From positions 124,001-188,000 of the forward strand of contig JAIQFC010000010.1 in the NCBI GenBank assembly GCA_020073465.1: a stretch of 64,000 nt of DNA, read 5' to 3'. Shown here one piece after another: positions 1,054-12,106 of the stretch. The translations under genes and the position numbers were made by a program. The number at the start of each line of letters is the position of its first letter. The stretch's first letter is position 1. The stretch comes from Terriglobia bacterium (GTDB lineage: Bacteria; Acidobacteriota; Terriglobia; Terriglobales; Acidobacteriaceae). A model generated the notes under the pieces. That model was given only the letters and a program-made list of their open reading frames with translations, searched no databases and was not told the DNA's origin.

Positions 1054-1434
1054 TCCGCGCCCCCAAGCCAGGTAAGAAGCAATACACGCCCAGTCCCAAA
1101 TCTAGCGAAGAACCCTGGCATTGCCTGTGATCAGAATCACAACTTGAGGCTCGTTGCGAAGGCAGATCACAGGCTGATTTGTCCAGAAATCCGTCCTGAG
1201 GTCAGAAATCTGAACGCTCGGACGTAGTGCAGGGGCGACTTTGTTGGAGCCGGCTATTGGACCATCGACGACTGTCGAATGTGCACCTCTGGTGACTAGT
1301 GCGTGGCAGGGATGGGTCTTAGACTGCAAGCGAATCAGTTGCCGCGAGGGACGCGAGTCCTTCGTTTGCCGAGGGGCGTGTTGCCAGGGAAGAGCGACTT
1401 AGAAGCTCGAGATCGACGAGCGCAAGGCAAGGCC
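1054..1434. other. Divergent intergenic region
   Basis: This 381-base stretch separates the minus-strand kinase from the plus-strand cytochrome operon. It contains the CRP-like palindrome at 1126-1141. The cytochrome frame stays open back to an ATG at 1303, but residues encoded by 1303-1434 are Arg/Gly-rich and not signal-peptide-like, so I treat them as non-coding. No RNA gene seen. Confidence 0.5.
1126..1141. promoter_or_regulatory. CRP/FNR-family palindrome TGTGA-N6-TCACA
   Basis: A perfect TGTGA-TCAGAA-TCACA palindrome matches the classical CRP consensus. It sits in the divergent promoter region between the histidine kinase (start 1053) and the multihaem cytochrome operon (start about 1435). 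A further inverted copy of its left arm (GATCACAGG, 1165-1173) lies about 40 bases away. The same motif recurs twice at 59237 and 59372. A CRP/FNR-type regulator is an inference; none is encoded here. Confidence 0.6.
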
Positions 1435-3411
1435 GTGGCTGGGTGGAGTTACACAGCCACGCGTTCGGCTCGGGGCTCAGTGCAGGCGGTTTGGTTGGTC
1501 TTTTCCCTGTGGTTGTTTCTGGCAGCGGCGGGCGCGCAGATCTCTCCCGGACCGTTGTCGAGGCCGCATCAATCACTCAATGGATCGACCAACTGCGCCA
1601 GTTGCCACAAGTTCGGCGGCGGGCAGGCGGCGCTGAAGTGCCTGGACTGCCATACGGAAATTGCCACGCGGCTCAGTGCCCGCAAGGGACTGCATGCGAC
1701 TTACAACATCCCTCCCGGTTCCAGCCAGGAGTGCGCGCGCTGCCACTCGGAACATAATGGCGAGGACTTCCCGCTGATTAAGTGGGACATCAAAACCTTC
1801 GACCACAAGCCGACTGGATATCCGCTTCTGGGCAAACACGCGGGCCTGACCTGCAATCGCTGTCACACGCCGGCGCGCATCAGTCCGCAAGAACGCTCCA
1901 CCATCAAGATCAAAGACCTGAACCGGACTTATCTGGGATTGGGGACGACTTGCGCGACCTGCCACCAGGATCCCCACAACGGACGACTGGGGCAGACCTG
2001 CCAGCAGTGCCACAACTTCGAAGACTGGAAGGCCATCAGCGTCGGCCAGTTCGATCACTCGAAGACGCGCTATCCGTTGACCGGACTGCACGCTCAGGTG
2101 GAGTGCGCGAAGTGCCATACGCCGGGCCCTGACAACAAGCCGCGATACACGGGAATTCCGTTCAACCAGTGCTCGGACTGCCACAGGGATCCGCATCGTG
2201 GAAGCTTCCCGCAGGGATGCCAATCCTGCCACAACACCTCGGGCTGGAAGAAGGTCTCACTCACCGCCGTGAATGAGCGCTTCGACCACTCGAAAACCAA
2301 GTTTCCCCTGCAAGGGAAGCACGTCAGCGTCGATTGCGCCAAGTGCCACGCCAATGGCGACTTCAAGAAGCCCCTGGTCTTCGCGAAGTGCATGGATTGT
2401 CACAAGCCCGATCCGCACAATGGGCAGTTTGCCAGGCGGCCGGATCACGGCGAGTGCGCTTCCTGCCACACAGTGAACGGGTGGAAGCCGTCGACGTTCA
2501 CTGTCAAGGAACATGCGACCAGTGCGTATCCGCTGCAGGGCGGGCATGCTCGGGTGGAGTGCATGCAGTGTCACATCCCGAAAGGGAAGGACACGCTATT
2601 CAAGATCAAGTTTGCGAGCTGCACGGACTGTCACAGCGACCGTCATGCGGGGCAGTTTGTTGCCGCGCCCTACTTCAACGCTTGTGACCTCTGCCACAAC
2701 CTTGAAGGGTACAAGCCGTCCACGTTTACCCTGGTGCGTCACAAGGAGACGCACTTCGTCCTGACCGGAGGCCACGTTGCCGTGCCGTGCGCCGACTGCC
2801 ACAAGGAGTCGGCGGAGTTTCAGCCGAAACCGGCGGTGGCCTATCACTGGAGAGATTTGACTTGTACCAGTTGCCATGCGGATCCCCACAAGGGGCAGTT
2901 CAAAGAACGCATGATGCAGGTGCGGGCGGACAAGACTGTTGCAGGGTGCGAGGCGTGCCACTCTACCAAGTCGTGGAAGGACTTGACCCGATTCGATCAC
3001 TCGAAGACTACGTTCCCGCTGCTGGGAGCGCACCGGGCAACGGCTTGCATGGACTGCCACAAGCCACCGAACCTCGAAACCAAGCTAATCAATGTTGATT
3101 TCAAGGCGGCGCCGACTCAGTGTGAAGATTGCCATGAAGACATCCACGGCAAGCAATTCTCCAAGGGAGAGGTTACGCGCTGCGTCGACTGCCACAACAC
3201 CATGAAGTGGAGACCCTCGCTCTTCGATCATGAGCAAAAGACGGCATTCCCGCTGCGGGGGGCGCACCAGAACGTGCGCTGCGCCGACTGCCACAAGCTG
3301 ACGAAGCTCGTCAACGGGAAGACGGTGCTCTTCTACAAGCCCACACCGAAAGAGTGCGCAGCTTGCCATGGGCCCACGAATCCAGTGCCCAGTCAAAAGC
3401 CGCGAGCGTAG
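1435..3411 (+). CDS. Secreted multihaem c-type cytochrome, 23 CxxCH motifs
   Basis: A signal peptide (hydrophobic WLVFSLWLFLAAAGA core preceded by two Arg) exports the protein. The mature part holds 23 CxxCH haem-attachment motifs, so it should be a periplasmic or outer-surface electron carrier with up to 23 c haems. The protein is built of about seven degenerate units of the form FDHSKTxFPLxGxH...CxxCH, followed by DPHxGxF and CxxCHxxxxW, in the style of cytochrome c3/doubled-CxxCH families. The start is uncertain: the frame is open from ATG 1303, but GTG 1435 gives a normal signal peptide with a positive n-region, while GTG 1480 would leave it without charge. It heads a co-directional gene set with a second, larger cytochrome, a beta-barrel protein, a b-type cytochrome and a flavoprotein, which suggests trans-envelope electron transfer. 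I do not assign a named family member. Confidence 0.9.
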   Translation: MAGWSYTATRSARGSVQAVWLVFSLWLFLAAAGAQISPGPLSRPHQSLNGSTNCASCHKFGGGQAALKCLDCHTEIATRLSARKGLHATYNIPPGSSQECARCHSEHNGEDFPLIKWDIKTFDHKPTGYPLLGKHAGLTCNRCHTPARISPQERSTIKIKDLNRTYLGLGTTCATCHQDPHNGRLGQTCQQCHNFEDWKAISVGQFDHSKTRYPLTGLHAQVECAKCHTPGPDNKPRYTGIPFNQCSDCHRDPHRGSFPQGCQSCHNTSGWKKVSLTAVNERFDHSKTKFPLQGKHVSVDCAKCHANGDFKKPLVFAKCMDCHKPDPHNGQFARRPDHGECASCHTVNGWKPSTFTVKEHATSAYPLQGGHARVECMQCHIPKGKDTLFKIKFASCTDCHSDRHAGQFVAAPYFNACDLCHNLEGYKPSTFTLVRHKETHFVLTGGHVAVPCADCHKESAEFQPKPAVAYHWRDLTCTSCHADPHKGQFKERMMQVRADKTVAGCEACHSTKSWKDLTRFDHSKTTFPLLGAHRATACMDCHKPPNLETKLINVDFKAAPTQCEDCHEDIHGKQFSKGEVTRCVDCHNTMKWRPSLFDHEQKTAFPLRGAHQNVRCADCHKLTKLVNGKTVLFYKPTPKECAACHGPTNPVPSQKPRA

Positions 3412-3818: not shown

Positions 3819-6221
3819 ATGTTGGCGTCTGGGGGCGTACTCAATCTAGCTGCAGTACTGCTACTGACGTTGTCCGGATCTCCGGCACGGCCGCAGGCCT
3901 CCGGAGGTACACACAGTCCGCACGGCAATCTGAACATTCCCTGCCAGAACTGCCACACGGCAAGTGCGTGGAGGCCGATCCGCGCCGTTCCAGAGTTCGA
4001 TCACAATCAGACCCGATATCCCTTGCGCGGTATGCATCAGTCTGTCACCTGCGTGCAGTGCCACGTAAAGCCCGTGTTCACGAACGTCGGGCAGCGCTGC
4101 CAGGATTGCCACGCCGACATTCACAAGCGGCAACTGGGTGCGAACTGCGAGCAGTGCCACACAGTACGGGGATGGCAGGTCTCGATTCAGCAGGTGCAGC
4201 AGCACAATAACCGTTTTCCGCTGACCGGAGCCCACGCGGCAGTCGACTGCGATTCCTGCCACAAGGGGGCGGCCAACAGCAAGTTCCAGACCATGTCGAC
4301 GGACTGCTATTCGTGCCACTCGGCAGACTTCAAGAGTGCGAGCAATCCGAATCACATCTCGGGCAAGTTCTCGATCACTTGCGAGCAGTGTCACGGGACG
4401 GACAGCTGGCTGAACGCGAAGTTCGATCATTCCGCGACAGGCTTTCCCTTGACCGGAGGGCACGCGGTGCCGCCGGCACAGTGCACCGACTGTCACGTCA
4501 ACAATAACTACAACCTTACAAGCACGGCTTGCGTGTCGTGCCATTTGAAAGACTTTCAGGGCACGACGAACCCGAATCACGTCTCGGCAGCCTTCCCCCA
4601 AACTTGCGAGCAGTGCCATACCACAGCGGCGTGGTCTCCGGCCACGTTCGACCACAGCACGGTCAACTTTCCGCTGACTGGATCGCATTCCGTGCCGCCA
4701 CGGCAGTGCACGGAATGCCACGTCAACAACAACTACAACATCACGACGACAACGTGCGTTTCGTGCCACTTGAAAGACTTCCAGGGCGCGACCAACCCTA
4801 ACCACGTGCAGGGCGGGTTCGCGCAGACTTGCGAACTCTGCCACAACACGACCGCGTGGCAGCCTGCGACCTTCGATCACTCCAAGTCCGCATTTCCATT
4901 GACCGGATCGCACACGGTGCCGCCGCGGCAGTGTGCGGATTGCCACATCAACAACAACTACAACATCACCAGCACGACGTGCGTTTCGTGCCACCAGAAC
5001 GATTACAGCAATGCGGTCAGCCCGGTGCCACACGCAGGTTTCTCTACGGCGTGCCAAACCTGTCATGACACGGTGGCGTGGATCGACGCGAAATTCGACC
5101 ATTCCACTGTGGGCTTTACGTTAACCGGATCGCACATGGTGCCGCCGCGGCAGTGTGCGGATTGCCACATCAACAACAACTACAGCCTGAACAGCACGGC
5201 GTGCGTTTCGTGCCACCTGAAGGATTTTCAGGGTACGACCAACCCGAATCACGTTACATCGAATTTCCCGCAGACTTGCGAGCAGTGCCATAACACGACG
5301 TCGTGGCTCAATGCTGTCTTCGATCACAGCAGCACGGGATTCCCGCTGACCGGATCGCACACGGTGCCGCCACGGCAGTGTACGGATTGCCACGTCAACA
5401 ACAACTACAACCTCACCAGCACGGCGTGCGTTTCCTGCCACCAGACCGACTACAACAACGCAGTCAGCCCGGTCGCCCATGCCGCAGCTGGCTTTCCGAC
5501 CACTTGCGAGACCTGCCACGACACGGTGGCGTGGACTGACGGCAAGTTCGATCACAACACGACGGGCTTCTCCTTGACCGGGCAGCACACGGTGCCGCCG
5601 CGGCAGTGCATCGATTGCCACGTTGGGAACAACTACAGCCTGAACAGCAATGCCTGCGTCTCGTGCCACCTGAAGGATTTCAACGGCACGACGAACCCGA
5701 ATCACGTGACCTCGGGATTCCCGCAGCAATGCGAGCTGTGCCACGACACCATCACGTGGACGGATTCAACGTTCAACCATAACAACACGACATTCCCGCT
5801 GACCGGCTCGCATACCGTTCCGCCACGGCAGTGCGCGGACTGCCACGTCAACGGCAACTACACGACGCTCCCGACGGCGTGCATTGGCTGCCACCAGACG
5901 GACTACAACAACACCACCAATCCCGGACATAAGGCCCAGCCGCAGTTCTTCCCGACGACTTGTCAGAATTGCCACAGCACCACGAACTGGCTGAACGCGA
6001 CCTTCAATCACACGCAGTACACGCAGTTCCCGACCAGTCACGGGAACGCGAATAACGTGTGCTCCACGTGTCACACGAATTCGAATGACTACTCGATCTT
6101 CCAGTGCACGAACTGCCACTCGAAGTCCCAGGCGGACTCGAATCACCAGGGCGTGAAGGGGTATGTGTACAACAGCATTAACTGCTACCAATGCCATCCC
6201 AGTGGGAACGGTGGTGGTTAA
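3819..6221 (+). CDS. Secreted multihaem c-type cytochrome, 31 CxxCH motifs in tandem tri-haem modules
   Basis: The 800-residue protein starts with a hydrophobic signal sequence and carries 31 CxxCH motifs. The first ~210 residues resemble the upstream cytochrome. From about residue 217 the protein becomes a strikingly regular array: seven modules of 74-76 residues, each containing FPLTGxHxVPPRQCxxCHVNNNYN, a CVSCH, and a CxxCHxxxxW followed by FDHS, so three haems per module. Its C-terminus has three more haem motifs after a degraded unit (NVCSTCH, CTNCH, CYQCH). Such extended modular chains are known from haem wires that carry electrons across or outside the outer membrane. The very high module similarity suggests recent internal duplication and possibly variable length between strains. 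It lies directly upstream of the beta-barrel gene. Confidence 0.9.
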   Translation: MLASGGVLNLAAVLLLTLSGSPARPQASGGTHSPHGNLNIPCQNCHTASAWRPIRAVPEFDHNQTRYPLRGMHQSVTCVQCHVKPVFTNVGQRCQDCHADIHKRQLGANCEQCHTVRGWQVSIQQVQQHNNRFPLTGAHAAVDCDSCHKGAANSKFQTMSTDCYSCHSADFKSASNPNHISGKFSITCEQCHGTDSWLNAKFDHSATGFPLTGGHAVPPAQCTDCHVNNNYNLTSTACVSCHLKDFQGTTNPNHVSAAFPQTCEQCHTTAAWSPATFDHSTVNFPLTGSHSVPPRQCTECHVNNNYNITTTTCVSCHLKDFQGATNPNHVQGGFAQTCELCHNTTAWQPATFDHSKSAFPLTGSHTVPPRQCADCHINNNYNITSTTCVSCHQNDYSNAVSPVPHAGFSTACQTCHDTVAWIDAKFDHSTVGFTLTGSHMVPPRQCADCHINNNYSLNSTACVSCHLKDFQGTTNPNHVTSNFPQTCEQCHNTTSWLNAVFDHSSTGFPLTGSHTVPPRQCTDCHVNNNYNLTSTACVSCHQTDYNNAVSPVAHAAAGFPTTCETCHDTVAWTDGKFDHNTTGFSLTGQHTVPPRQCIDCHVGNNYSLNSNACVSCHLKDFNGTTNPNHVTSGFPQQCELCHDTITWTDSTFNHNNTTFPLTGSHTVPPRQCADCHVNGNYTTLPTACIGCHQTDYNNTTNPGHKAQPQFFPTTCQNCHSTTNWLNATFNHTQYTQFPTSHGNANNVCSTCHTNSNDYSIFQCTNCHSKSQADSNHQGVKGYVYNSINCYQCHPSGNGGG
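4467..5990 (+). repeat. Seven in-frame tandem repeats of about 225 bases inside the 31-haem cytochrome
   Basis: The GTGCCGCC core of the VPPRQC motif (GTTCCGCC in the last copy) occurs at 4467, 4692, 4917, 5139, 5364, 5592 and 5817, giving spacings of 225, 225, 222, 225, 228 and 225 bases, all multiples of three. Each unit encodes a 74-76 residue tri-haem module. The period creates a long spurious antisense ORF. Confidence 0.85.
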
Positions 6222-6311: not shown

Positions 6312-8939
6312 ATGATGGCGGTTCAGAAACATGTTGCGACGTGGATGATCCTGTTGTCGTGTGCCGCGGCTCAGAACACGGCCGGGACAGCCACGGTTCA
6401 GGACGTCGCAGTGGCTCGAGTAGGAACAGATTTGCGGATCGAAGTGACGCTCAGTTCGGCGGTGAAGCCTTCGGTTGAGACTGCGATCCATCCTGACCGG
6501 ATTCTGCTCGATCTTCCAGACACCATCTGCACGGATAAGACCAGGAGAGTCGACGTTCACTTCAACGGCGTGCGCCGGGTGCGCACCGGGCAGCATTCGA
6601 CTAGCCCTCTTGTCACGCGCGTGGTCCTTGATCTGGACCAGTCCAATCCCTATAGCGTCAGAGTGGAGGGGAACCGCATCATTCTGGTCGTTAGTCCTGC
6701 GACGGACGCGCGGAGAGTTCGTTCCGGTGCGCCAGCGGCGGCGACGTCCGGAAGTCTGATCGGAATCTTCCGCCGCAGGCAGGAAACGCTGGCTCCGATT
6801 GCGGAGGACAATTCGCCTGCTCCTGCGGAGCCCGTTCCTCCGCCCGGCACGGCTGCAGCGCCTGCGGGTGTCGCGACAGGTTCGTCTGCAACAACGCTTC
6901 CTTCGGGGACAGAGACAGCCCCTACCCCGCCTGGGCCAGCGGCGACCGGTTCAACGGAAGGCTCTACCGCGCAGGGATCGTTCACCCAGAATCAGATTGC
7001 GGCGAACACCGGTGGGAGGAACTCCGCGCCGGTTGCGGCTGCGACTCTCCCATCGGCCGTTGCGTCTCCGGCCGCGACCCCGAAGCCGGCCGCGGAGGCA
7101 CCCGCGCCCGCGACTCCGGTTGCCAGTCCGGCGCCCGCTACTGCCGAAGCAACGGCAGACGTTTCTCCAACTGCTGCCCCGAAGCCGGCTGACGCCGACG
7201 AGGGTGGAGGCGCAGTGGTGTCGCCCGCGCCCTCGGCTCCGCCTGCCACTCCAGCACGCACAGCAGTTGAGGCGACCACCATGATTGCCCGAATGGATGA
7301 CCCGAGCCTGCACACCGTCTTCAAGGTAAAATATGTCGCGGAAGGCGTGGCGTACCTGGATGGAGGCAGGGCCCAGGGGCTGACCGAGGGCATGAAACTG
7401 GTGGTCCAGGACAGCAACCTGCCCGCAAAACAGGGCGACAGCGTCGATGCCGCTGATCCGAAAGTGGTAGCCGAGTTGGAGGTGAGTGCAGTTGCGGAGA
7501 CCTCCGCTGTGACGGACATCCACACGCCCAAGCGTCCGGTGAAGGTGGGAGATCTGGCATACCTGTCGAGCAGTGACGCCGCTGCACTGGTACAGCAGCG
7601 GGCATTGAGCGCAACCCGTCAGTACCCGGCGGTGATCTCGTTCACAGAAGGCGACACGCTGGATGAGGAAGCCCGCCAGGAAGTGCCCCGGCCGCCCTTG
7701 CCTTCGGTGAACCGCGCCCGTGGCCGTATCGGGCTCGACTACATGGACACCATCAGTCACGGCTCGACCAGCATGACGAGCTCCGATGTGGGCGTGGTGT
7801 TTCGTGGCGACATCACGCGCATTGGCGGTACCTACTGGAACTTGAGCGGTTACTGGCGCGGCCGGCTGACCAAGAGTTCTGCAGCCAGTCAACAGACACT
7901 GCAGAACCTCATCAACCGGACGTATCACCTGAGCATGACCTACGACAATCCGAACTCAAGCCTGGTCGCTGGTTTTGGCCGCCTGTATCTTCCGTGGGCG
8001 CCGAGTCTCGACACCATCGACGGAGGGTATTTCGGAAAAAGACTCAGCAAGGGGACCACGCTCGGAATGTTTGGCGGCTCTACGCCTGATCCTTCATCGT
8101 GGGACTACAGTCCTGATCGCGTCATTGGCGGCGCCTTTGTTAATTTTGATGGCGGTGCGTATGACGGCTTTCACTACAGCAGTACCTTCGGCGCCGGAGC
8201 CAGCCTGTTGAAGTGGCAGATGGACCGCCCTTTCGTCTTCTTTGAAGATTCGTTCTCATACGGACGGCGCTTTGCTGTGTACGAGTCCGCGCAACTCGAC
8301 GACCCCAAGGGAAATACCGTCGCCCTCTCACCGGGGCCGGGATTGGGGCGCAGCTTCTTTACTCTGCGCGTCCAGCCGCATCCCCGGGTGGAGATCGATT
8401 TCAACCACAACTACTTCCGCGATATTCCGACGTTTGACCCTACGCTGATCAGCGTGGCTCCCGGCCTCCTGGACAAGTTCCTGTTCCAGGGATTCAGCGC
8501 GGGAGGCCGGGTCGAGGTGATGAAGCAAGTTTTCGTCTCGACGAACCTGGGTCGAAGCAGCCGAACGGGAGATGCGACGTCGTCGCTGAACGAGATGTTC
8601 GGTCTCACATACGGACGGCTTCCCTGGGTGCACCTGCGGGCGGACGCGCACTATGCGCGGTTCAACAGTTCCTTCGGGAGCGGATCGTACGAGGCGTTCT
8701 CGCTCTCGAAACAGTTCTCCGACAACCTGCGGCTGGAAATGCTGGCGGGACAACAGAACTTCACCTCTGCGGTTACGACGAACAGCCGGGGGCGGTTTCT
8801 GACGGGAACGGTGGAGACCACACTCGGCCCCCATTACTACCTGCAAGGCAGCTTCACTACGAACCGCGGCCAGCTGAGTTATGACCAGTTCATGTTCTCG
8901 CTCGGCTACCGCTTCGATTCGAAGAAGCATAAAGAATGA
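6312..8939 (+). CDS. Outer-membrane beta-barrel protein with N-terminal AMIN domain
   Basis: After a signal peptide, residues about 22-130 form an AMIN-type domain (VARVGTDLRIEVTLSS ... PDRILLDLPDT ... VRRVRTGQH ... TRVVLDLD), a fold usually found in secretins and cell-wall amidases, where it binds envelope structures. A Pro/Ala-rich linker of nearly 180 residues follows (about 143-320). Next comes a small domain around 322-425 with a GVAYLDGGRAQGLTEGMKL stretch, as in SH3-like domains of envelope proteins. The last ~400 residues alternate in polarity with many aromatic strands and end in FSLGYRFDSKKHKE, which suggests a transmembrane beta-barrel. Its place directly behind two giant cytochromes suggests the role that MtrB/PioB-type porins play in porin-cytochrome conduits, though I see no sequence relation to MtrB. 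It overlaps the next gene by ATGA. Confidence 0.8.
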   Translation: MMAVQKHVATWMILLSCAAAQNTAGTATVQDVAVARVGTDLRIEVTLSSAVKPSVETAIHPDRILLDLPDTICTDKTRRVDVHFNGVRRVRTGQHSTSPLVTRVVLDLDQSNPYSVRVEGNRIILVVSPATDARRVRSGAPAAATSGSLIGIFRRRQETLAPIAEDNSPAPAEPVPPPGTAAAPAGVATGSSATTLPSGTETAPTPPGPAATGSTEGSTAQGSFTQNQIAANTGGRNSAPVAAATLPSAVASPAATPKPAAEAPAPATPVASPAPATAEATADVSPTAAPKPADADEGGGAVVSPAPSAPPATPARTAVEATTMIARMDDPSLHTVFKVKYVAEGVAYLDGGRAQGLTEGMKLVVQDSNLPAKQGDSVDAADPKVVAELEVSAVAETSAVTDIHTPKRPVKVGDLAYLSSSDAAALVQQRALSATRQYPAVISFTEGDTLDEEARQEVPRPPLPSVNRARGRIGLDYMDTISHGSTSMTSSDVGVVFRGDITRIGGTYWNLSGYWRGRLTKSSAASQQTLQNLINRTYHLSMTYDNPNSSLVAGFGRLYLPWAPSLDTIDGGYFGKRLSKGTTLGMFGGSTPDPSSWDYSPDRVIGGAFVNFDGGAYDGFHYSSTFGAGASLLKWQMDRPFVFFEDSFSYGRRFAVYESAQLDDPKGNTVALSPGPGLGRSFFTLRVQPHPRVEIDFNHNYFRDIPTFDPTLISVAPGLLDKFLFQGFSAGGRVEVMKQVFVSTNLGRSSRTGDATSSLNEMFGLTYGRLPWVHLRADAHYARFNSSFGSGSYEAFSLSKQFSDNLRLEMLAGQQNFTSAVTTNSRGRFLTGTVETTLGPHYYLQGSFTTNRGQLSYDQFMFSLGYRFDSKKHKE

Positions 8940-9757
8940 TGCGACGAATACAAATTGGAAACCTTCTGCGGGTCAGCACGTGGGCCGTGATTGCCACGGC
9001 CAGCCTGTGCTTTGCGGGAAATTCTCCTGCCTCATCCGATGCGCAGAAGTTAAATGACCTTCTACGTCGCACCGGCGACCAGACTTCCGCATTTCTCGAC
9101 CAGTTTTCAGACGTGAAGTGCACAGAACACGTGCGGCAGGAGAAGCTTGGCAAGGACGACAAGATCGAACTGAAAGAAGAATCCACATACGACTACCTGG
9201 TCATCTTGACGAACGCCGGGGGAGAACTGAACCTCTCTGAGTCCCGCTTGCCCGTGCACGAGGCGAAGCGGGACCGCAAGAACACGTCGATGCTGCTCAG
9301 CAACGGATTTGCCACGCTGTTCCTGGTGTTCCATCCTTACTACGCAGAGGCTTTCAAGTTCACGCTTGCCGGAGAGGAAGTAGTCGGCGGCCGCTTGTTG
9401 GATAAAGTCACGTTCCAGCACGTTCCCGGGATGAAGTCGCCTGCGGCTCTGGCTCTGCGCGGGCGCGAATATCCCCTGGAACTTACCGGGGCGGCATGGA
9501 TTGATCCGGAGAGCGGCACCATCGCAAGAATCGAGGCTGGTATTGAAGACACGTTGCAGGATGTTGGGCTAAAGTCTCTGCATTCGGAGATCGAGTTTGC
9601 CCCCCTGCCATTTGGGGACTCAAAACCGGTGTACTGGTTTCCAACGCAGGCCAGCGTAGAGGTCGAAACCCCCAGACAGCACTGGCGTAACTTGCACCAG
9701 TTCACGGAATACAAGAAGTTCTCAGTAAGTACAGAGGAGAAGGTGACCAGCCGATGA
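8936..9757 (+). CDS. Secreted protein of unknown function in the cytochrome operon
   Basis: The 273-residue product begins with an Arg-rich n-region and a hydrophobic segment ending near CFAGNSPASS, so it is probably exported (lipoprotein processing is possible but the box is weak). The rest is a soluble domain with many short beta-strands, including a WIDPESGTIARIEAG motif that resembles outer-membrane-lipoprotein-sorting (LolA/LolB-like) folds often seen in acidobacterial secreted proteins. No catalytic motif or haem site is visible. It is translationally coupled on both sides: its ATG overlaps the stop of the barrel gene and its stop overlaps the ATG of the b-cytochrome gene. It may therefore be an assembly or accessory factor for the conduit. 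An alternative start is the adjacent ATG at 8939. Confidence 0.75.
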   Translation: MMRRIQIGNLLRVSTWAVIATASLCFAGNSPASSDAQKLNDLLRRTGDQTSAFLDQFSDVKCTEHVRQEKLGKDDKIELKEESTYDYLVILTNAGGELNLSESRLPVHEAKRDRKNTSMLLSNGFATLFLVFHPYYAEAFKFTLAGEEVVGGRLLDKVTFQHVPGMKSPAALALRGREYPLELTGAAWIDPESGTIARIEAGIEDTLQDVGLKSLHSEIEFAPLPFGDSKPVYWFPTQASVEVETPRQHWRNLHQFTEYKKFSVSTEEKVTSR

Positions 9758-10710
9758 GCGCGAATGCCACAGCCACCGCCCGAATTGCCTCCACTGCATC
9801 CGCGGCTGTGCCGGATGCGGAGAGACGCCATCGTGTGCGGCTTTATGCCTTGTACGTTCTGGCGATCGCCATCAATTTGGCGATCTTCATCTACGGATTC
9901 GACTACTACAAGCTGTCGGCTATGGACCGGCCGTTTTCTCCAAAGCACCACCTTCTGCGCCCGAGCGGTCCGATAGGGCTGTATCTCGGATTCTTCGGCG
10001 TGGCTCTGTTTGTCGGCATCTTCCTTTATCCGATTCGCAAGCACTGGCCATGGCTGGCGACGATTGGAAACACCCGCCACTGGCTCGATATCCACATCGT
10101 GATGGGGCTGACAGCCCCGGCGATCATCGCCTTCCACTCCACCTTGAAGTTCAAGGGGCTCGCAGGCATGGCGTTCTGGATCATGTTTGCGGTTTCTGCC
10201 AGCGGAGTAGTCGGACGATATCTCTATGGGCAAATTCCACGCAAGGTAACCACCGCTGAATTATCGATGCGGGAGTTGCAGGACTTGCAGGCGCAGCTGT
10301 CGCAGCAACTGGCCGCGCAGAACCTGCTGCCGGAAGCCGACCTGCGGGCTCTGTTGCGGCTTCCCGACGCAAACCGCGTGGCGCGCCTGCCCATCGTAGT
10401 GGCGATCATCTACATGATGCTGCTCGATGTGGCCCGGAAGTTCCGCGTGGCTCGGCTCCGCCGCCATGCGCTGAGGGGCAGTGCATTCTTGACTACGCTG
10501 GCTGGGTTCCTGCCCACGAGGCACCGCGCGGTCGAGCGGGCGATTCATGCCGCTGCGGAAGAGGCCGCCCTTTCCAAGAGAGTCCTGTTCCTTTCACGGT
10601 CGCAAAAGGTCTTTCATCTGTGGCACGTCGTGCACAAGCCTTTCAGTTATGCCTTCGCTGTGCTGGCCTTGATTCACATCGGACTGCAGTTCGTTCTGGG
10701 ATACTTCTGA
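9754..10710 (+). CDS. Membrane b-type cytochrome-like subunit
   Basis: This 318-residue membrane protein has about five transmembrane helices (around residues 27-49, 70-90, 108-128, 137-157 and 290-315). Histidines fall in or at the edges of helices (WLDIHIVMG, AFHSTLKF, FHLWHVVHKPF, LIHIG), a pattern expected for two b haems in a cytochrome b561/FdnI-like bundle. A charged cytoplasmic loop rich in Gln and Leu (about 165-265) separates the last helix from the others. It overlaps the preceding gene by ATGA and is ten bases from the Fe-S flavoprotein, so the two probably form an inner-membrane module passing electrons between NAD(P)H or ferredoxin and the periplasmic cytochromes. The direction of flow cannot be read from the sequence. 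Confidence 0.75.
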   Translation: MSANATATARIASTASAAVPDAERRHRVRLYALYVLAIAINLAIFIYGFDYYKLSAMDRPFSPKHHLLRPSGPIGLYLGFFGVALFVGIFLYPIRKHWPWLATIGNTRHWLDIHIVMGLTAPAIIAFHSTLKFKGLAGMAFWIMFAVSASGVVGRYLYGQIPRKVTTAELSMRELQDLQAQLSQQLAAQNLLPEADLRALLRLPDANRVARLPIVVAIIYMMLLDVARKFRVARLRRHALRGSAFLTTLAGFLPTRHRAVERAIHAAAEEAALSKRVLFLSRSQKVFHLWHVVHKPFSYAFAVLALIHIGLQFVLGYF

Positions 10711-10720
10711 GCTCACAGCC

Positions 10721-12106
10721 ATGGACTCACTGATCACATTCGGGATTGCGGCGGCCATCACCCTCTTCTTCGTTGTCAGTTACCTGAGGAATCTGAAGAA
10801 GAGAGATACCCGTGCGCGCGAAGCGGCAGAGAAGGGAAAGCTGTTCTCTGACGGCCCCAGAGCCCAGCATCCGCATATCGACACCAATTACTGCATTGGC
10901 TGCGCGACCTGCACCACAGTTTGTCCGGAGGGTGATGTGCTGGCGATGATCGCGGGCAAAGCCGTGATCGTGAACGGGCACAAGTGCATCGGCCACAGCC
11001 TTTGTGCGGATGCGTGTCCAGTCGGTGCGATCACCATGGTCATGGCCAGCCCCAGCATGGGTGCGGACATGCCATTCCTCACACCGGAGCATGAAACCAC
11101 CATTCCTGGTCTGTTCATCGTCGGCGAATTAGGGGGCCTGGCGTTGATCAAGAACGCGGTGAACCAGGGACGCGATTGCATCGACACGATATCGCTCCGG
11201 CTGGGGAGAAATCCCGCTGCTCGGGCGACAGACGGGGTTTACGACGTCCTTATCGTCGGAGCCGGGCCGGCGGGGATCAGCGCTTCGTTGCGGGCCATTG
11301 AAAACAAGCTTAGCTACATCACCCTGGAGCGAGATGAAGTGGGCGGCACCGTGGCGAAATATCCGCGCCAGAAGTTGGTAATGACCAGCCCGGTGGAATT
11401 TCCCATGTACGGGAAGTTCAAGAAAATGCAGCTCTCGAAGGAGAATCTGCTCGCGTTTTGGGACATGGTGTTGAACCGGGCGGATTTCAACGTTTCCACC
11501 GGAGAGAAAGTCGAAGACATCAAGAAGGGTGAAGACAGCATCTTTACCATTCTAACGGTGAACAATGGATACCGCGCGCGACACGTGATCCTGGCCCTGG
11601 GACGCGCCGGCGAGCCGCGCAAACTCGGCGTCAAGGGTGAGGAACTGCCCAAGGTGATGTATCGCCTGATCGAAGCCGACCACTACATCAACAAGAAGAT
11701 TCTGGTGGTTGGCGGGGGCGACAGCGCAGTCGAGGCTGCCATGGGGCTCGCGCACCAGGCCGGCAACCAAGTCACGCTCTGTTATCGTGGAGAGCACTTC
11801 AGCCGCATTAAGGAGCGAAACTCGAAGCGGATGGAAGACTGCATGCGCACGGGCAAGGTCAAGGTGCTCCTTCAGACGAATCCGGTTGAGTTCAAGGCGA
11901 GTTCGGTTATTCTCGACGCAAAGGGTGCGCAGCAGGAGATTCCGAACGATTTCGTGTGGATTTTTGCGGGCGGGATACCTCCGAATGACTTCCTGAAGAA
12001 GGTCGGCGTGGGCTTCGGACAACGCGACGTGACGCTGGAGGCCAGCAAAGAAGCTAAACAGGCTGAGACTTCCCGCAAGCAGCTTGCTCAAGCTGCAGCG
12101 CGCTAG
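10721..12106 (+). CDS. Membrane-anchored ferredoxin-domain/FAD/NAD(P) oxidoreductase
   Basis: The 461-residue protein starts with one membrane helix (residues 4-22), then a two-cluster ferredoxin domain (about 50-110). Cluster one is canonical, with Cys58, Cys61, Cys64 and Cys68. Cluster two reads Cys89, His92, Cys95, Cys99, with His where the second Cys is expected. A thioredoxin-reductase-like flavoprotein follows: an FAD GxGxxG (VLIVGAGPAGIS, near 169-180), an ERDEVGGT segment, and a second Rossmann motif VVGGGDSAVEAA for NAD(P). The CxxC redox pair of thioredoxin reductases is absent, so electrons most likely pass between NAD(P)H, FAD and the Fe-S clusters. Sited ten bases after the b-type cytochrome gene, it looks like the cytoplasmic end of the conduit. 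It is the last gene of the set. Confidence 0.85.
   Translation: MDSLITFGIAAAITLFFVVSYLRNLKKRDTRAREAAEKGKLFSDGPRAQHPHIDTNYCIGCATCTTVCPEGDVLAMIAGKAVIVNGHKCIGHSLCADACPVGAITMVMASPSMGADMPFLTPEHETTIPGLFIVGELGGLALIKNAVNQGRDCIDTISLRLGRNPAARATDGVYDVLIVGAGPAGISASLRAIENKLSYITLERDEVGGTVAKYPRQKLVMTSPVEFPMYGKFKKMQLSKENLLAFWDMVLNRADFNVSTGEKVEDIKKGEDSIFTILTVNNGYRARHVILALGRAGEPRKLGVKGEELPKVMYRLIEADHYINKKILVVGGGDSAVEAAMGLAHQAGNQVTLCYRGEHFSRIKERNSKRMEDCMRTGKVKVLLQTNPVEFKASSVILDAKGAQQEIPNDFVWIFAGGIPPNDFLKKVGVGFGQRDVTLEASKEAKQAETSRKQLAQAAAR

Follow-up and report, generated by a model that had tools for sequence, protein, structure and literature searches.

The plus-strand reading frame at positions 3819-6221 of the window (the whole 64,000-nucleotide stretch analyzed here, C63:124001-188000) raises the question of what a cytochrome built from repeated tri-haem units does, and whether its length is set by gain and loss of these units. 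The frame, hereafter cytB, comes from a soil bacterium, opens with ATG and encodes 800 residues with 31 CxxCH motifs and no further cysteine. Analysis of the motif distribution reveals that the protein is modular over its full length, a first haem being followed by two, seven and one tri-haem units (1+3x10 = 31). The head (3900-4421) comprises haem 1 and two diverged tri-haem units (residues 60-201), that is seven haems with motif spacings of 36-16-16-34-19-25. The core (4422-6002, residues 202-728) consists of seven modules (4422-4646, 4647-4871, 4872-5093, 5094-5318, 5319-5546, 5547-5771 and 5772-6002), each with three CxxCH motifs spaced approximately 34-16-25 and the ligand order H-H-CxxCH-CxxCH-H-CxxCH. 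The cap (6003-6218, residues 729-800) is a diverged terminal three-haem unit that ends with GYVYNSINCYQCHPSGNGGG. The 31-haem cytochrome with seven modules of three CxxCH each, as described by the initial annotation, is thus found as stated; the module length of 74-76 residues given there holds except for the last module (75, 75, 74, 75, 76, 75 and 77 residues in order), whereas the description of the units as nearly identical does not stand, identities among the core modules being 53-80% at the amino acid level and about 56-81% at the DNA level. Tandem Repeats Finder reports a period of 225 bp (score 897; 6.3 copies with 68% matches), as well as one of 453 bp that spans two modules and has 77% matches. 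The Pfam family Cytochrome_C7 (PF14522) matches nine stretches of cytB with 139 bits against a gathering score of 24.8; TIGR04257 (nanowire_3heme) matches the head (residues 32-99, 45.7 bits for a cut-off of 40 bits), with no core module reported as a match to this profile.

Homologues of cytB were found in 11 of the 45 genomes of the same genus and at 71 loci of public genomes, mostly from acidobacteria, but also from Bacteroidota, Ignavibacteriales, Planctomycetota and one bin labelled Gemmatimonadetes. A constant, non-repetitive protein in these relatives had been named as the finding that would speak against the modular reading; the relatives are modular and variable. Indeed, the head spacings given above are nearly invariant across the homologues, as are those of the cap (about 33-15-27, three haems), which is also conserved in Bacteroidota and Planctomycetota, and the core is formed of n modules. 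With seven haems fixed in the head and three in the cap, a total of 10+3n haems is therefore expected. The haem number spans 16 to 79 in intact frames. The sequences compared come mostly from short-read metagenome-assembled genomes (MAGs), in which many contigs end inside the array and the numbers are then minima. Of the 39 intact frames, 29 total 1 mod 3 on CxxCH motifs alone; including CX3-4CH sites raises this to 35 and leaves four exceptions. In an independent test, clusters were retrieved with a profile of the neighbouring membrane protein and their cytB was counted afterwards: all 11 cytB with a canonical head are 1 mod 3 (22, 28, 28, 28, 31, 31, 34, 40, 40, 46 and 52 haems), counts that come from related sequences and are thus not independent draws, and the partner cytochrome has 23 haems in 11 of 11. 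Three more cytB-like frames (19, 23 and 27 haems) do not have the canonical head and fall outside the 10+3n test. The recurrence of period, motif spacing and ligand order across phyla suggests that this modularity is more than chance.

The histidines follow the same plan. The order H, H, CxxCH, CxxCH, H, CxxCH with exactly three spare histidines is found in 228 of the 253 core modules of the homologue set, and cytB of the window has 32 spare histidines for its 31 haems. Three spare histidines per three haems are what a chain of bis-histidine haems requires, which favours bis-histidine ligation throughout, and one spare histidine per haem argues for function over drifting low-complexity sequence. 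In Planctomycetota, most core modules are short of one CxxCH and one histidine together; these two-haem modules are about 48 residues long (L083 9800-11875, L101 6685-8616). In gp2 acidobacteria (L057, L058, L064 and L065), a CX4CH motif such as CGNSGCH replaces the second CxxCH in several core modules. Haem loss in these apparent two-haem modules was considered and rejected: they likely keep three haems because CX4CH occupies the second motif position. The polymer-like linear chain proposed by the initial annotation is plausible in view of the regular spacing and of the spare histidine that accompanies each haem; for PCC3 cytochromes, elongated and largely linear models have been published (PMC10734462).

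The genes surrounding cytB, all on the plus strand, give insight into its possible role. Upstream, cytA (1303-3411) is a 702-residue frame with 23 CxxCH, the true start of which is probably near 1483, ahead of the hydrophobic signal VQAVWLVFSLWLFLAAAGAQ. Downstream, the frame 6312-8939 encodes a predicted outer-membrane beta-barrel protein with an N-terminal AMIN domain (E 6e-12) and a Pro/Ala-rich linker; its C-terminal 551 residues are conserved in 27 homologues adjoining cytB, and a PDB profile search with this candidate gave no match and no recognised fold. We consider it probably to be the outer-membrane barrel. It is followed by an exported 273-residue protein of unknown family (8936-9757), restricted to acidobacterial clusters, and by an inner-membrane protein (IMP) of 318 residues (9754-10710), a predicted di-haem-b electron carrier that contains the motif WX3HX13H on TM3 and TM5 and SGVVG on TM4 (WLDIHIVMGLTAPAIIAFH, SGVVG, WHVVHKPFSYAFAVLALIH). 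Two WX3HX13H motifs are found in 34 of 42 IMP homologues and SGXXG in 41 of 42. Hydropathy indicates six segments in the window IMP, of which segment 209-227 is not evident in the Emticicia homologue. Across the phylum, roughly one in ten of 396 sampled genomes has a strong IMP homologue (E under 1e-40). The last gene (10721-12106) encodes a membrane-anchored 2x[4Fe-4S] and FAD/NAD(P) oxidoreductase, thioredoxin-reductase/YpdA-like, that accompanies IMP in about 40 loci. The cluster is conserved across phyla, and in almost all complete loci cytB is located between the 23-haem cytochrome and the putative outer-membrane protein. In Bacteroidota, the membrane protein and the reductase come first, followed by cytA and cytB, and the place of the barrel is taken by a protein that is unassigned or has weak similarity to it. 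Without the signal regions, there are 27.0 residues per haem in the 23-haem cytA and 24.9 in the 31-haem cytB; the net charges, haem propionates excluded, are +24 and -13, respectively, opposite values that would fit docking and prove nothing. In three acidobacterial loci, cytA-like and modular cytB-like parts are found in one frame with 37-44+ haems, open at contig ends (L127 8650-11649; L129 1-3051; L130 4641-8246, the same region as L079), which suggests that cytA and cytB may form one continuous chain. The whole cluster (23+40 haems) is also present, together with a ccsA cytochrome-maturation gene, on plasmid pEMTOL02 of the isolate Emticicia oligotrophica DSM 17448 (L102, 1109-12907); given this plasmid location, it may move between hosts.

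These features recall the porin-cytochrome clusters of type PCC3. For the inner-membrane proteins of PCC3 and PCC4, which are believed to bind two haems b, He et al. (2017, PMC5566968) gave a signature of two WX3HX13H motifs and SGXXG. The PCC3 protein has five transmembrane helices, compared with the six hydropathy segments of the window IMP. In the same paper, PCC3 has a larger cytochrome (median 34 haems, up to 85) with haem-bearing repeats and a smaller periplasmic one (median 21), and in the Gallionellaceae report, PCC3 cytochromes have 10-35 haems, the smaller one 21, 24 or 27 (PMC10734462). Compared with these descriptions, the window IMP matches the signature exactly, belongs to the same class of approximately 300 residues and places the motifs on TM3/TM5 and TM4; the two adjacent multihaem cytochromes (23 and 31 haems) fall within the 22-39 residues per haem, the larger one has haem-bearing sequence repeats, and a candidate barrel gene is in the cluster. 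On the other hand, the PCC3 of these sources is proteobacterial whereas the window type is found in Acidobacteriota, Bacteroidota and others; it adds a conserved 2x[4Fe-4S]/FAD reductase and an AMIN-tagged barrel, and the exact 10+3n head-core-cap rule is not among the PCC3 descriptions in the parts of the papers available. The careful wording is thus PCC3-like, a likeness by signature, gene set and description. A plasmid search for related clusters yielded, apart from Emticicia, an unrelated short Bradyrhizobium cytochrome; this BTAi1 plasmid match, a short cytochrome beside an iron reductase without porin or cytA, was rejected as a proteobacterial PCC3. In the OmbB-like PCC of Burkholderiales, with 24- and 49-haem cytochromes, a constant 24-haem protein likewise has a larger neighbour, in which CxxCH domains are inserted or deleted; this PCC differs by its phylum, by its OmbB-like porin family and in that no tri-haem unit rule is given (Arbour et al. 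2020, PMC7399161).

Variable haem wires in porin-cytochrome clusters are thus already known (PMC5566968, PMC7399161, PMC10734462). What is new within the literature searched is the head-core-cap 10+3n plan, the rule of one histidine per haem and the traces of recombination presented below. The same holds for the Fe-S/FAD reductase attached to the cluster, for the carriers among cultured isolates and for the spread over Acidobacteriota, Bacteroidota and further phyla. Within that literature, a search for PCC3 in Acidobacteriota or Bacteroidota found nothing, which does not by itself establish novelty. The initial annotation did not mention the PCC3 precedent, the conserved cluster of conduit genes or the invariant ends of the protein, head and cap.

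Taken with the gene content, these comparisons lead us to consider cytB as probably the variable-length outer part of a PCC3-type trans-envelope electron conduit, a type that has received little study. The Fe-S/FAD protein would be fed by NAD(P)H or ferredoxin at the inner face, electrons would cross the inner membrane via the di-haem-b protein and the 23-haem cytA would span the periplasm. The invariant head would anchor cytB at cytA and/or at the outer-membrane barrel, and cytB would conduct electrons across the outer membrane, or past it, to an acceptor outside the cell. Since each core module would itself supply the three distal histidines for its three haems, unequal recombination could add or remove whole modules in frame and leave the wire unbroken. 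A broader formulation, that of an NAD(P)H-fed, quinone-independent conduit present in at least four phyla, with an outer wire whose length evolution can adjust (the docking ends being fixed while the tri-haem core recombines and the reach of the wire is reset in three-haem steps from about 16 to about 79 haems), is put forward as tentative and is rather unlikely to hold in all its parts. Were the conduit reading true, PCC3-like conduits would not be a proteobacterial speciality but would also occur in acidobacteria dominant in soil and in Bacteroidota from the sea and fresh water, and the cultured isolates Yeosuana and Emticicia would make them testable. The homologues would then provide a natural length series, from 16 to 79 haems, for relating conduction to haem number within one covalent chain, and the head-core-cap plan a template for wires of chosen length made from one module.

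The same conduit could run inward, with Fe(II) or another donor outside the cell supplying the electrons, and this reading, which differs in direction only, is a real possibility that we nevertheless do not expect. PCC3 was described from Fe(II) oxidisers, in which it is thought to run inward, and its authors leave the direction open (PMC5566968). The co-conserved NAD(P)-type Fe-S/FAD reductase, however, points to a link with NAD(P)H or ferredoxin; the sequence itself gives no direction.

Alternatively, cytB might be a periplasmic haem wire or capacitor comparable to Geobacter GSU1996 and GSU2210, which would stay in the cell and store charge or bridge the periplasm, the module number tuning its capacity. 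The Cytochrome_C7 matches along the chain and the head match to TIGR04257 above cut-off are in line with this reading, as are cytB copies that stand without a barrel. Against it, the HHccHc order of the core modules, with three histidines, is different from the c7 motif order; nearly every complete locus has cytB between the 23-haem cytochrome and the conserved protein predicted for the outer membrane, and an extended 79-haem version would be far longer than the periplasm is wide. GSU1996 (12 haems, PDB 3OV0) and GSU2210 (27 haems) share with cytB the plan of successive tri-haem domains in one polypeptide, and GSU1996 is periplasmic; its domains, however, hold one His-Met haem each (PMC10138318), and these Geobacter c7 wires have a fixed copy number, are periplasmic and have no porin cluster. 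The profile of alignment A1 matched 3ov0 weakly (E 0.005). On balance we regard a periplasmic wire as unlikely. The best PDB profile match is 1z1n, at E 4e-8 for the module profile and 2e-10 for the whole, and the best matches of cytB are the high-molecular-weight (16-haem) and nine-haem class III cytochromes (1z1n, 1gws, 19hc). These are proteins of sulfate reducers with a fixed architecture, in contrast to the variable array found here in a conduit cluster. The likeness to OmcS, OmcE and OmcZ, long haem chains outside the cell, is a functional analogy only, since they are polymers of small separate subunits whereas cytB is one covalent chain from one gene. In cytB, no lipobox or other signal for the outer surface was identified. 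Two orphan 25-haem cytB copies (L047 9926-11959, L050 9956-11956) have no cytA, barrel or membrane protein nearby, so that cytB may also act outside the conduit complex; the assembly of the second (SRVP_4) also holds a full cluster with a 49-haem cytB (L038).

Returning to the length of cytB, the proposed change of copy number by recombination is well supported. In 30 intact pairs, cytA has 23 (24 cases) or 20 haems (6 cases) whereas cytB, which steps by three, ranges from 16 to 79, and on a tree of 31 partner proteins the haem number of cytB changes at least 22 times. L041 and L054 are sister loci that share about 90% identity across 20 kb; L041 has nine core modules and L054 three, and their last modules are 99% identical. 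One clean crossover between them was considered and rejected: about 170 nt of the middle module of L054 fit neither parent diagonal well, so that at least two events, or subsequent divergence, must be invoked. The cytA frame of L041 (7912-9615) has just 567 residues and 20 haems, compared with 23 in near relatives, and may have a truncated start or a frame error. Among cultured bacteria, cytB has 31 haems in one Yeosuana isolate and 22 in another. In the near relatives L037, L039 and L041 the modules pair up by position, whereas in arrays that are longer or less closely related (L053, L059, L070 and Emticicia) almost every module has its closest match within the same protein, which would point to lineage-specific expansion, a pattern that the sparser sampling there would also favour.

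More recent traces are visible in the DNA. In the window, an exact repeat of 47 bp is present in core module 3 (4916-4962) and, 222 bp downstream, in core module 4 (5138-5184). When codons were shuffled 300 times with the protein held fixed, the longest exact repeat never exceeded 37 bp; the 47-bp repeat is thus longer than in every shuffle and is taken as the footprint of a recent exchange between these adjacent modules. The same procedure revealed exact repeats above expectation in Emticicia (109), Y. marina (131) and L053 (89), which in the cultured isolates points to very recent duplications, and no excess in Y. aromativorans or L041. That the cytB repeat is an assembly or annotation artefact, or a neutral low-complexity expansion, is very improbable: although many short-read contigs in other MAGs break within the array, the window copies differ by 20-40% and share no longer exact repeat, on a contig of at least 188 kb, the spare histidines are retained, head and cap are nearly invariant across phyla, and the finished plasmid of the Emticicia isolate has the same plan. 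Inside a Bacteroidetes array (L066 9992-12952), a 360-bp exact direct repeat would represent either a very recent duplication or an assembly fault. Opposite the array of the window, long antisense frames are found on the minus strand (3861-5102, 413 residues, and 5121-5744, 207 residues), which most likely result from nothing more than the repetition of codons in the array.
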